Source: Blastopirellula marina
GTDB lineage: Bacteria > Planctomycetota > Planctomycetia > Pirellulales > Thermoguttaceae
Assembly: GCA_020721965.1 (NCBI GenBank)
Contig: DYLS01000003.1
Location: 1-64,000 of the forward strand
Direction: 5' to 3'
Length of the DNA stretch: 64,000 nucleotides
The position numbers and the translations under genes were made by a program. Positions 3,985 to 9,833 of the stretch are shown here, in pieces; the first letter of the stretch is position 1; the number at the start of each line of letters is the position of its first letter. The notes below the pieces were generated by a model. That model saw only the letters and a program-made list of their open reading frames with translations, did not search any database and was not told where the DNA came from.

Positions 3985-4023
3985 CCCCCCCAATCACCCT
4001 CGCCCGCGCCACCAGCACACGCG

Positions 4024-4183
4024 CCACCAGCGTAAGCTGGTGGTGGTGGTAAATAAAAAGAGCCACCAGCGTAAGCTGGTGGTGGCGCCGCGTGATGGTC
4101 GCATACAATCGCAGTGCATCCACCTCGGGCTTACGCCCGAGGCTCGGGCATTCGCTCCACGAGCCACCAGCGTAAGCTGGTGG
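4024..4183. repeat. REPIN-like array, hairpin order A-A-B-A
   Basis: Hairpin A CCACCAGC-GTAA-GCTGGTGG at 4024-4043, 4063-4082, 4164-4183; hairpin B CCTCGGGC-TTAC-GCCCGAGG at 4123-4142; spacer GTGATGGTCGCATACAATCGCAGTGCATCCA. Confidence 0.93.
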
Positions 4184-4215
4184 TGGCTAAGGCGTTGCCG
4201 CCAATCCGCACGCCG

Positions 4216-5595
4216 TCACAATCCCAGCACCCAATTCGCCGTATTGAAATAGATGAGCAGTCCCGTAATGTCCACCACCGTCGTCAACACGGGACTGGCC
4301 ACCACGGCGGGGTCCAACTTGAACAGCGTGGCCAACAACGGCAGACCCGTCCCCACCAGCGCCGACGACACCACTTGGAGGCTTAGTGCAATCGCGATAC
4401 ACACCGCGATCCCCTCCAGCGAGTGGTCCCCCGGAATCTCCGCCCCTTGCGACAAGAACATCACCTTGGCCCAGGATAACACCCCCAATACCAAGGCCAG
4501 CAAGATCGCGATGCGAAACTCTTTCCACAGCACCCGCAGCGTGTCGCGAAGGTTGACCTCTCGCAGGGCCAAGGCCCGCACCACCACCGTCGCCGATTGG
4601 CTCCCGGTATTCCCGCCCGTATCCGCAACCATCGGCATGTACAGGGCCAGAATCAACATCTGTGTCAAAGTTGCCTCGTACTGGTGAATGATGATCCCCG
4701 AAACCAGTCCCAAGGCTGCCAGCCCCACGATCCAGACCGCCCGATTCTTGAAGTGCGACCATACGCTCGTGCGAAGATAGGCCCCGGCCAGGTGGGCACC
4801 CCCGATCGCCATCAGCTTCTCGATATCTTCCGTCTGCTCCTGCGTGATGATATCCATCGCGTCGTCGTGCGTAATGATCCCTACCAATTGCCCTTGTTCA
4901 TTGACCACCGGCAGGGCCAGCAGGTCGTATTTCTGGATGATGCGGGCGGCATCTTCCTGGTCGTCGTTTACCCGGCAGTAGATCGCGTCGCGGTGCATGA
5001 CGTCCGAGACGGTCTCGTGCGAGAGGGCCAGGATCAGGTCCTTGAGCGACACAAAGCCCAACAGTCGCCGGTTGGCGTCCACGACGTAGGCGTAGTAGAT
5101 AGTCTCCTTGTCGGGGGCCTCCAGGCGGAGTTTTTGTATCGCCTCCGCCACGGTGAGGTCCGGCGGGAGGGCGGCATAATCCGACGTCATGACGGCCCCC
5201 GCCGTCCCCTCTTGATACGACGACAGGCGGCGGATGTCCTCCCGCTCGGCCTGCGCCAAGAGCCGCATCAGCATCTCGCGGCGGTCTTCCGGCATCCGCT
5301 TGATCAGGTCCACGCGGTCGTCCGGCGGCAGGTCCGTAATCAGGCTCGCCAACTCCTGCCGCGGGATCACGGCCGTAACCACCATCTGCACCTCGGGGTC
5401 CAGATGGACGAAGATCTCCGGACGAATCTCCTGGTCGGCCAGGGAAAGAATCTTCCAGATTTCCTCCGGCGAGAGCGGGCTGATGAATTCCGCAATCGAC
5501 GCCTGGTGGCAAAACCGGCAAAACTCGCGGATGCCCTCTACGTCGTTGGTGCGAAGATAGTCGCGGAGTTCCGGGACGAGGAGTGGGTTCAGCAT
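4216..5595 (-). CDS. mgtE: Magnesium transporter MgtE (MgtE_N, CBS pair, membrane domain)
   Basis: MLNPLLVPELRDYLRTNDVEGIREFCRFCHQASIAEFISPLSPEEIWKIL...; CBS motifs; membrane segment MPMVADTGGNTGSQSATVVVRALAL. Confidence 0.95.
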   Translation of the reverse strand: MLNPLLVPELRDYLRTNDVEGIREFCRFCHQASIAEFISPLSPEEIWKILSLADQEIRPEIFVHLDPEVQMVVTAVIPRQELASLITDLPPDDRVDLIKRMPEDRREMLMRLLAQAEREDIRRLSSYQEGTAGAVMTSDYAALPPDLTVAEAIQKLRLEAPDKETIYYAYVVDANRRLLGFVSLKDLILALSHETVSDVMHRDAIYCRVNDDQEDAARIIQKYDLLALPVVNEQGQLVGIITHDDAMDIITQEQTEDIEKLMAIGGAHLAGAYLRTSVWSHFKNRAVWIVGLAALGLVSGIIIHQYEATLTQMLILALYMPMVADTGGNTGSQSATVVVRALALREVNLRDTLRVLWKEFRIAILLALVLGVLSWAKVMFLSQGAEIPGDHSLEGIAVCIAIALSLQVVSSALVGTGLPLLATLFKLDPAVVASPVLTTVVDITGLLIYFNTANWVLGL

Positions 5596-5909
5596 GTTCG
5601 CACCTCCTGACCGCCTGAGCAAGCGGCACGGAGGGCGAACGGAATCAGCCCCCTAACCGCTGCATTTGCTCAGCGGAGCAGATGTGATGGATGATCGCCT
5701 TGAGCGCGGGACGGTATTTACCGCACGAACTACCGCCGCCACTTTCCGAATCCGACCCGTTCATTGCTCGAACACAAAAGTCCTTGTAGAACAGCGCGCG
5801 GAACACAGCGCGCACCCCGAAGAGGACGTTCACCTCACGTCCAGTAACGCAATTGTAGCCCTGCGCCGCACTGGCGTCAATCGAAGCGCCTCGGGCGGTG
5901 CCACCCCCA

Positions 5910-6078
5910 CCTCGGGCTTACGCCCGAGGCTCGGGCATTCGCTACATGAGCCACCAGCGTAAGCTGGTGGTGGCGGTGGCGGTGAATAAAAAAAAGAGCC
6001 ACCAGCGTAAGCTGGTGGTGGAGCTGCGTGATGGTCGCATACAATCGCAGTGCATCCACCTCGGGCTTACGCCCGAGG
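5910..6078. repeat. REPIN-like array, hairpin order B-A-A-B
   Basis: Hairpin B at 5910-5929 and 6059-6078; hairpin A at 5951-5970 and 5999-6018; linkers identical or near-identical to the 4.0-kb array. Confidence 0.93.
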
Positions 6079-6116
6079 CTCGTTGCTCATCATCCGCGGC
6101 GCGGCGGCGGTTTGCG

Positions 6117-7574: not shown

Positions 7575-7750
7575 AGTCGCGGTTGCCCAAACGCGGTTGC
7601 CTTTGCCCTAGGGCGAATCGGGGAATCGTTACCATCACTCCAATCGCCCATTTAGGATTTGATTATACGGGGGTCCAAATGGATTGCAACTAGGTTTTTT
7701 CGGACCTTCCAAAATTGATCCTCAAATGGGGGGGTATCGTGGCACTCGAG

Positions 7751-7886
7751 CCACCAGCGTAAGCTGGTGGTGGCTAAGCTGGTGGTGGCGCTGGGTGATG
7801 GTCGCATACAATCGCAGTGCATCCACCTCGGGCTTACGCCCGAGGCTTGTGGTCGCACGGCCGAGGATCGTGATTGCGTCCGGGGG
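7751..7886. repeat. 136-bp REPIN-containing direct repeat, left copy
   Basis: Hairpin A 7751-7770, hairpin B 7826-7845; differs from 8431-8566 at about two positions (catAcA/catAtA; ggcTtgt/ggcTcgt region). Confidence 0.93.
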
Positions 7887-7905
7887 CATGTTGGAGGCGA
7901 CACGC

Positions 7906-8442
7906 ATGAGGTACTGGCTCCTCACTTGGACAACGTACGGGAGCTGGTTGCCGGGCGACCCACGCGGTTCGGTAGCTTCTGTACGATCGGGTGGCGGCCC
8001 ACGGATGGAGCGTGACCGACCAAACCAGCCGTTCGAACCGCCGATGCCGAGCTTGCAGATGGCTTCCGCACGGTTGCAAGAATTCGAACCGGTGAAGCTG
8101 GACACGGAGCAGGCCAAGGCACTTCGCGAGCAGTTCCTCGCTACTGCCAACCACCGAGGTTGGCGATTGATCGCGGGGGCGATCATGCCGAATCATGTGC
8201 ATCTGCTGGTTGCGGCGACGGATGAGGCGGCCCCGGAAGGTATCATGCGGGACCTTAAGGCGTACAGTGCACGGCGATTGAACGCCCTAGCTGGGACGAA
8301 AAGGAAATGGTGGACGCGGCGTGGATCGCGAAGATACTTGAGCGATCAACGGGCGGTAGTGAGCGCGGCGGCGTACGTGCAGCGTCAGCAGCATCCGCTT
8401 TTGGTCTGGGCGGAAGGAGATCGATCCGACCCACCAGCGTAA
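7906..8442 (+). mobile_element. REP-associated tyrosine transposase (RAYT / IS200-like Y1, Transposase_17)
   Basis: MRYWLLTWTTYGSWLPGDPRG..; HUH motif MPNHVHLLV; candidate catalytic Tyr in DLKAYSARRLN; WWTRRGSRRYLSDQRAVVSAAAYVQRQQ tail. Alternative ATG at 7888. Confidence 0.88.
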
Positions 8443-8566
8443 GCTGGTGGTGGCTAAGCTGGTGGTGGCGCTGGGTGATGGTCGCATATAATCGCAGTGC
8501 ATCCACCTCGGGCTTACGCCCGAGGCTCGTGGTCGCACGGCCGAGGATCGTGATTGCGTCCGGGGG
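8431..8566. repeat. 136-bp REPIN-containing direct repeat, right copy
   Basis: Hairpin A 8431-8450, hairpin B 8506-8525; same orientation as the left copy. Confidence 0.93.
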
Positions 8567-9733
8567 TCATAGTCGGCGGAGGCGACTGGCGGCCATCTCT
8601 TGCGATCGCCCTGCCATTGCCCGGGCCTCTTCCACGGCGGCGATTTCCTCTTCCGTAAACGGGACGGCCTCGCCGGGGAGCGGAGGTTGCGGGACCAACC
8701 GCCGCACAACGGCATCGAGCATCGGCGACACGTCGGATGACCGGAGGGCCGAGATCTCCAATCCGGGGGGGCGGTACCCCAGCGCGGGAGGTAGGTCGGC
8801 CTTGTTGTGAATCAACAGTGCTCCGGGTTGAGTTGACAGAATTGCGTCGTTGTCCGGCGTCCACGGTTGAGAGCGGTCGAAGACCAGGATCACCAGGTCG
8901 GCTTGACGAGCGGCGGCGTGGGCCTTTTGAACGCCCAGGCTTTCTACGGGGTCCTCGGCGGATCGCAGGCCGGCGGTATCGATCAGCTCGATCGGCCAGC
9001 CGTCGGCGACGATCAGCGATGAGACGAGGTCGCGTGTGGTTCCAGGACTGGGGTGCACGATGGCCCGACCGTAGCCAGACAAAGCATTGAGGATGCTGCT
9101 TTTGCCTACATTGGGGGGGCCAAAGATGACGACCCGCCAAGGCTGTAGCAAGTGCCTTCCCAGGGAGGCTCGGTCGCAAAGGCGATTCAGGCGACGGGCG
9201 GCGTCGGGCTGACCGGTCTCGAGGCCCGCGGCAATCTCTCGCAGCGCCGCTCGCAATGCCCCGTGGTACTGATCGAGCAAGATGTTGGCGGTGCGTGTGG
9301 TTCGGGCGTGGGACAAGGCGATGCGTGCGGCCGCGGCGATGGGATCGGCCTCCTGGTCGGATACCCAGCTTTCCCATAAACGGCGGAGGAAGCCGTCGGT
9401 CTCCGCCGCACGGACGATGTTCTCCACGATGCGTGCGCCACCGTGGCAGTGGATTTCCAGGGCGTGATCGCTGGGGCGGTAGAGCACAGCCTCTTCCGGC
9501 TCCGGTCCGCCAAAATCCCAATGCACCAGGCGTTGTCGGGGGCCGGGCGGCATCTCGATGGGCTGGCCGGATCGGCTCCATGCGCGGCGGCGGATGGCCA
9601 GTTCGACCAGGGATCCCTCCAATCTCACCACGGCGATGGCCCCAGCCGCCTGGGCCGTGAGGACCGTAACCGTGTTCTCGCCACGGGGCGGTTCGGTTTT
9701 TGGAGCGATCATCGAGTGGGCGTCGGGTTGCAT
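8567..9733 (-). CDS. MnmE/TrmE-like tRNA modification GTPase, short form
   Basis: VTVLTAQAAGAIAVVRLEG N-domain; GPPNVGKSSILNALSGYGRAIVHPSPGTTRD, DTAG, NKAD G-motifs; ends SRLRRL without the canonical C-terminal CIGK. Start uncertain (9712 or 9733). Confidence 0.82.
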   Translation of the reverse strand: MQPDAHSMIAPKTEPPRGENTVTVLTAQAAGAIAVVRLEGSLVELAIRRRAWSRSGQPIEMPPGPRQRLVHWDFGGPEPEEAVLYRPSDHALEIHCHGGARIVENIVRAAETDGFLRRLWESWVSDQEADPIAAAARIALSHARTTRTANILLDQYHGALRAALREIAAGLETGQPDAARRLNRLCDRASLGRHLLQPWRVVIFGPPNVGKSSILNALSGYGRAIVHPSPGTTRDLVSSLIVADGWPIELIDTAGLRSAEDPVESLGVQKAHAAARQADLVILVFDRSQPWTPDNDAILSTQPGALLIHNKADLPPALGYRPPGLEISALRSSDVSPMLDAVVRRLVPQPPLPGEAVPFTEEEIAAVEEARAMAGRSQEMAASRLRRL

Positions 9734-9833
9734 CGGAGCTGGAGGGGGCAAACAATGAGTTCAAAGGCTCGCCGCATGGTGGGTCGCTGAGCCATTCTAA
9801 GATTGCCATTGTAAACGCTAAAGGGCCAGACAC

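Follow-up and report, generated by a model that had tools for sequence, protein, structure and literature searches.

A planctomycete RAYT-like transposase gene between REPINs with two different stems, and the dispersed REPs that it probably serves

We found that a locus in the genome of Blastopirellula marina is very probably a REPtron, in which a single chromosomal Y1/HUH RAYT resembling TnpAY1 class 3 acts in trans on about 200 REPs, many of them paired as REPINs. The locus occupies positions 7751-8566 of the window (the whole 64,000-nucleotide stretch that was analysed, from contig DYLS01000003.1), and it is of a known bacterial kind from a poorly studied planctomycete branch. In the broad sense of the terms REPtron and RAYT it has the features expected: the HUH motif and the tyrosine are intact, REPs stand on both flanks, and a genome-wide count of the hairpins, which the preliminary description had suggested making, set ~200 dispersed REPs against one transposase. 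That description had taken the locus for a RAYT with its REPIN substrates, a view now sustained by the single RAYT, the number of REPs, the REPIN-RAYT-REPIN layout that recurs in relatives, and a presence/absence polymorphism described below.

The transposase gene (7906..8442, forward strand) encodes 178 amino acids and occurs once in the genome. Its likely start is the ATG at 7906, with a Shine-Dalgarno-like GGAGG at 7892-7896, and there is an in-frame alternative start at 7888. In a family scan the ORF matched PF01797 (E=1e-10), and it matched NF047646 (REP_Tyr_transpos) with E=2e-13 and 50.4 bits, which is under the curated cut-off of 80 bits. The residues invariant among 19 aligned sequences include H97, H99, K118, W136, G140, S141, R143, and Y157, with Q161 nearly so; the HUH motif H97-V98-H99 is encoded at 8194..8202 and Y157 (in YVQRQQ) at 8374..8376, both on the forward strand. 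Y157 stands 60 residues past the HUH motif, as in relatives, a distance that falls inside the range of 58-67 given by published subclass medians (PMC6006769). Judged by its sequence, the ORF between the repeats is a Y1/HUH transposase with an intact HUH motif and a predicted catalytic tyrosine, as had been proposed, and the absence of conserved HUH and Tyr residues on alignment, which had been named in advance as evidence to the contrary, did not materialize. The tyrosine is nevertheless not the one first nominated (Y120, in DLKAYSARRLN), which aligns with alanine in ISDra2 and is Y, F, H, W, N, or V in relatives.

An AlphaFold model of the protein, made with 19 homologues (mean pLDDT 86.9), matches the ISDra2 and IS608 transposases as well as the E. 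coli RAYT-REP complex 4er8, at whole-chain TM-scores that are modest (~0.44-0.50 by query length). One could therefore ask whether the locus is an ordinary insertion sequence of the IS200/IS605 type, its gene and flanking hairpins mobile as one element: it shares with ISDra2 and IS608 the Y1 HUH fold and active-site residues, its catalytic core and Y---Q spacing are like those of class 1 transposases, and its best matches among solved structures are ISDra2 and other IS200-type enzymes. However, an IS200/IS605 gene is mobile with its ends and present in several copies, whereas here one gene copy faces ~200 hairpins, no obvious tnpB stands among the neighbouring ORFs (none of the five window proteins that were family-scanned was tnpB), and the flanks consist of inverted pairs on both sides rather than one LE and one RE hairpin, all of which makes such an element highly improbable.

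On either side of the RAYT gene lie direct repeats of 136 bp (7751..7886 and 8431..8566, both on the forward strand), which differ at two positions (7809 C/T and 7848 T/C) and have a period of 680; the coordinates, spacing, and approximate number of differences previously reported were all reproduced. The left copy consists of a type A REP (7748..7773, forward strand; GAG-CCACCAGC-GTAA-GCTGGTGG-TGG), a 55-nt spacer, a type B REP that is inverted relative to A (7823..7848, reverse strand; AAG-CCTCGGGC-GTAA-GCCCGAGG-TGG), and a 41-bp tail; the AAG foot of this B is GAG in other B copies. In the right copy, A lies at 8428..8453 on the forward strand and has GAC as its foot, and the inverted B lies at 8503..8528 on the reverse strand. 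The RAYT stop codon (TAA, 8440-8442) sits in the GTAA loop of this downstream A, and at three other loci (L158, L160, and L066) the downstream REP likewise overlaps or abuts the end of the RAYT gene. The right repeat abuts the stop codon (8567-8569) of an mnmE/trmE-like GTPase gene (8567-9751, reverse strand), which has a weak TrmE_N match and only ~43% identity to its counterparts in congeners G001 and G002, and which was not found in congener G003; gene order differs as well.

Exact copies of hairpin A (CCACCAGC-GTAA-GCTGGTGG) number seven in the window and those of hairpin B (CCTCGGGC-TTAC-GCCCGAGG) five, all of them within 4.0-8.6 kb, as against none expected from shuffles. Outside the repeats, A recurs exactly at 4024, 4063, 4164, 5951, and 5999 and B at 4123, 5910, and 6059, in agreement with the hairpin pair earlier placed at 4.0 and 5.9 kb; these copies form an A-A-B-A cluster between two convergent genes (4021..4186, forward strand) and a B-A-A-B cluster in the intergenic region upstream of an MgtE-like gene (5907..6081, forward strand). 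The REPIN spacers of both clusters are related to the RAYT-flanking spacer, of which ~15 nt are not present in them, and the 41-bp tail was not found beside other REPs sampled. Because the two 136-bp copies share the spacer insert and the tail, which were not seen at the other REPs sampled, a local origin of one copy from the other is much the likelier, rather than two independent REPIN insertions; local copying or conversion of a REPIN with its leader tail would be the simplest reading. The original suggestion that the REPIN-RAYT unit had duplicated, here taken as tandem duplication of the entire unit, was rejected because there is no second RAYT and only the 136 bp of REPIN plus 41-bp tail are doubled.

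Read loop-up, A and B follow one REP formula, GAG-CC-N4-GC-GTNA-GC-N4'-GG, with stems that are different but fully compensated. Across 52 A and 36 B copies the extended consensus is CnYGAG-CC-N4-GC-GTNA-GC-N4'-GG-TGGA, in which foot, loop, and tail hardly vary and the inner stems are mostly ACCA/TGGT, GCCA/TGGC, or TCGG/CCGA. The initial remark that hairpins with GTAA in the loop look distinct from the classical arrangement was correct in part: the loop is GTNA, whereas the 5' tag conserved in both arms is GAG in place of GTAG. Where A and B are neighbours at the loci that were read, their relative orientation is fixed: they are inverted in REP terms and 40-150 nt apart, and such an A-B pair is a REPIN with two different stems. 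Bertels and Rainey in 2011 reportedly described REPINs as two inverted REPs plus a spacer, dispersed through the genome; the present pairs are alike in all of these respects and differ in that their arms have unrelated stems and their spacer is variable between copies.

A pattern search for REP copies in the 4.95-Mb genome gave 200 matches, as compared with none for a reversed-pattern control. Selected transcription terminators or RNA elements, with a historical or accidental link to the RAYT, could account for hairpins that fold well on either strand and for the finding that every REP cluster in the window is intergenic. The fixed A/B orientation and inverted pairing suit mobile repeats better, however, and the conservation of foot and tail outside the stem, the occurrence of a separate REP variant at each RAYT, and presence/absence between relatives argue in the same direction, so we regard terminators or RNA elements of this sort as a very unlikely explanation. 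The mobile and the terminator or RNA roles can both be true together; REPs elsewhere have gained roles of the latter type.

Support for a REPtron extends across the order, where each RAYT is coupled to its own REP variant. Among 51 homologous genes from related planctomycetes of the order, 39 have flanks that share a repeat; when flanks of different genes were paired instead, 37 of 2601 combinations shared one. At the 37 loci with at least 35% identity and E<=1e-20, the 21.7 kb of RAYT flank contained 37 perfect-stem GAG hairpins, whereas the 61.3 kb of distal sequence contained 1 and shuffled sequence 0.0. Stems differ among loci and yet 94.7% of pair cells are kept, with a covariation of 0.648 versus 0.133 shuffled (0/500); because the sequences were selected as hairpins, part of this pairing is built in, which does not hold for the variety of pair types. 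L153, which is 51% identical and belongs to another family, repeats the REPIN-RAYT-REPIN layout and has two types of stem. In 297 genomes, a RAYT (E<=1e-20) was present in 17 of the 25 that are REP-rich (at least 5 REPs of the formula) and in 17 of the 272 others (Fisher p 8e-13, ignoring relatedness); the eight REP-rich genomes without a RAYT at this threshold count against the REPtron, as do the REPIN spacers elsewhere in the B. marina genome, which diverge from those near the RAYT and are mostly of another type, ~51 nt in length. In one family (L153, L062, L064, and the f7 genomes) many REP stems have a constant internal mismatch (e.g., AA against GC), a feature that has also been published for E. 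coli REPs.

Of the 60 relatives searched, only the congener G003 has, like the present genome (G000), both A and B in abundance; in the same search G001 and G002 had no A or B hairpins, and in G040 the A stem occurred in a hairpin with another loop. A dispersed hairpin of another kind, CCACCAGCTTTAGCTGGTGG, is present in G040 (e.g., at L151) in ~41 copies, frequently in inverted pairs ~165 bp apart, and no RAYT was found there at E<=1e-5. Between genes that are 85% and 82% identical in G000 and G003, the G003 counterpart of positions 3987-4222 (236 bp, with the four REPs of the A-A-B-A cluster) is 99 bp long and has no REPs. Conversely, REP hairpins are present at a G003 site (L216) whose counterpart in G000 (L029) is ~90 bp without them; at other sites REPs lie near the same genes in both. 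Because such REP-less orthologous sites are reciprocal between G000 and its closest relative, we conclude that REPINs come and go. The events may be insertions, but in principle REPs could instead have been deleted from the empty sites.

The only RAYT of G003 was rejected as an orthologue of that in the window, being 40% identical, of another clade, and accompanied by other hairpins. No orthologue of the window RAYT was detectable in the G003 assembly, which is 87% complete and in 990 contigs. Its breaks are enriched near REPs (11 of 44 REP matches are no more than 300 bp from a contig end, versus 4.8 expected), and assembly could thus have dropped a gene flanked by REPINs, although this is an excuse rather than a proof. 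The REPs of G003 thus count against the REPtron, and the preliminary description, which held that equally abundant hairpins in relatives devoid of the RAYT would contradict it, is partly answered in the unfavourable sense: the same hairpins are there and no orthologue was detected, but in a fragmented assembly.

A rival reading is that the REPtron is degenerate and inactive, the RAYT being a relic and the 136-bp repeats a passive segmental duplication. There is no close RAYT orthologue for a test of selection, and the unlike REPIN spacers elsewhere in the genome would fit with such decay; on the other hand, the ORF is intact and carries all 15 residues invariant in its clade, most A copies have the exact core, and sites are polymorphic with respect to the nearest relative. 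We consider inactivity unlikely.

The closest published group to this RAYT is TnpAY1 class 3, and membership is likely. Class 3 is known from Planctomycetes, Acidobacteria, and Proteobacteria and has Y----Q and hairpins with a CnGA foot (BMC Genomics 2018, PMC6006769); it has been proposed as an intermediate between IS200 transposases and RAYTs, its behaviour was described as needing experiment (PMC6006769), and the literature surveyed on these systems reports no biochemistry for it. The window RAYT resembles class 3 in its planctomycete host, its extended conserved N-terminus, its tyrosine with Q instead of NP after it, and the atypical, high-copy hairpins that flank the gene. YVQRQQ fits both Y---Q and Y----Q, and the clade shows both spacings. 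Compared with the published CnGA, the foot here is nYGAG (consensus C-n-Y-G-A-G), so that GA is common and C is not fixed; strict CnGA is confined to certain relatives (e.g., L070 and L171). With the GTNA loop and stem turnover defined here, the GAG/GTNA rule refines the description of the class.

Classical RAYTs (TnpAY1 class 2, NF047646) are alike in that a single RAYT lies between inverted REPs, with dispersed inverted pairs, dimorphic REPs, and palindromes kept by complementary changes, all known from gammaproteobacteria (Nunvar 2010, PMC2817692; E. coli TnpAREP, 4er8). They differ in their GT(A/G)G head and Y---NP motif, in place of which we found GAG in both arms and YVQRQQ, and the NF047646 score is below cut-off. 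The statement that RAYT/REPIN biology is mainly gammaproteobacterial overlooks the published planctomycete class 3 (PMC6006769) and R. baltica, in which GTAG REPs are reported along with numerous repeat-flanked tyrosine transposase genes (PMC3733652).

If the locus is a REPtron, REP hairpins would fold when DNA is single-stranded, during replication or repair, and the RAYT would bind them by reading the GAG foot, the shape of the 7-8-bp stem, and the GTNA loop, not the stem sequence. Y157 and the H97/H99 metal site would then cut beside the foot and rejoin the ends, and we infer that this RAYT is the mover of the REPs: the REPINs, not the RAYT gene, would be cut out and copied to further intergenic positions. 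A candidate rule for the substrate emerges from the locus and its relatives, namely a GAG foot and a GTNA loop on a stem of any sequence that pairs, which, together with natural heterotypic REPINs and empty sites, makes the question of recognition directly testable.

The formula may extend further. Reverse-complemented, the Rfam orphan RF01687 ("Acido-Lenti-1 RNA") reads AGCC-TAGC-GC-GTCA-GC-GCTA-GG, which is the formula of these REPs; as it also occurs in dispersed inverted pairs, it may be a REP, a mobile repeat of DNA and not an RNA. In an Rfam search the B hairpins scored 24 bits against RF01687 (cut-off 37), true members of which carry a second small hairpin; low-scoring microRNA families were taken as chance matches to palindromes. 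None of the RF01687 matches adjoins the acidobacterial or lentisphaerotal RAYT-like genes tested, so the link consists of formula, copy number, and paired layout. GTAG and CGTC are known REP superfamilies. Our tentative suggestion, which we hold to be possible but somewhat doubtful, is of a further superfamily across Planctomycetota, GAG-tagged and GTNA-looped, whose own RAYT clade would read foot and loop while stems drift freely, with RF01687 as a double-hairpin mobile DNA member and not a noncoding RNA; if the link is true, the Rfam family needs re-annotation. RF01687 exceeded its cut-off in 12 of 25 genomes and in no control genome, with matches at E<=1 ranging from a few per genome to at least 150 in Oligosphaera. 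The matches are often inverted pairs ~150 bp apart (ten pairs in G175), and they occur in tens of copies in G175, G114, G122, G178, G040, G309, and G311 (loci L221-L230).
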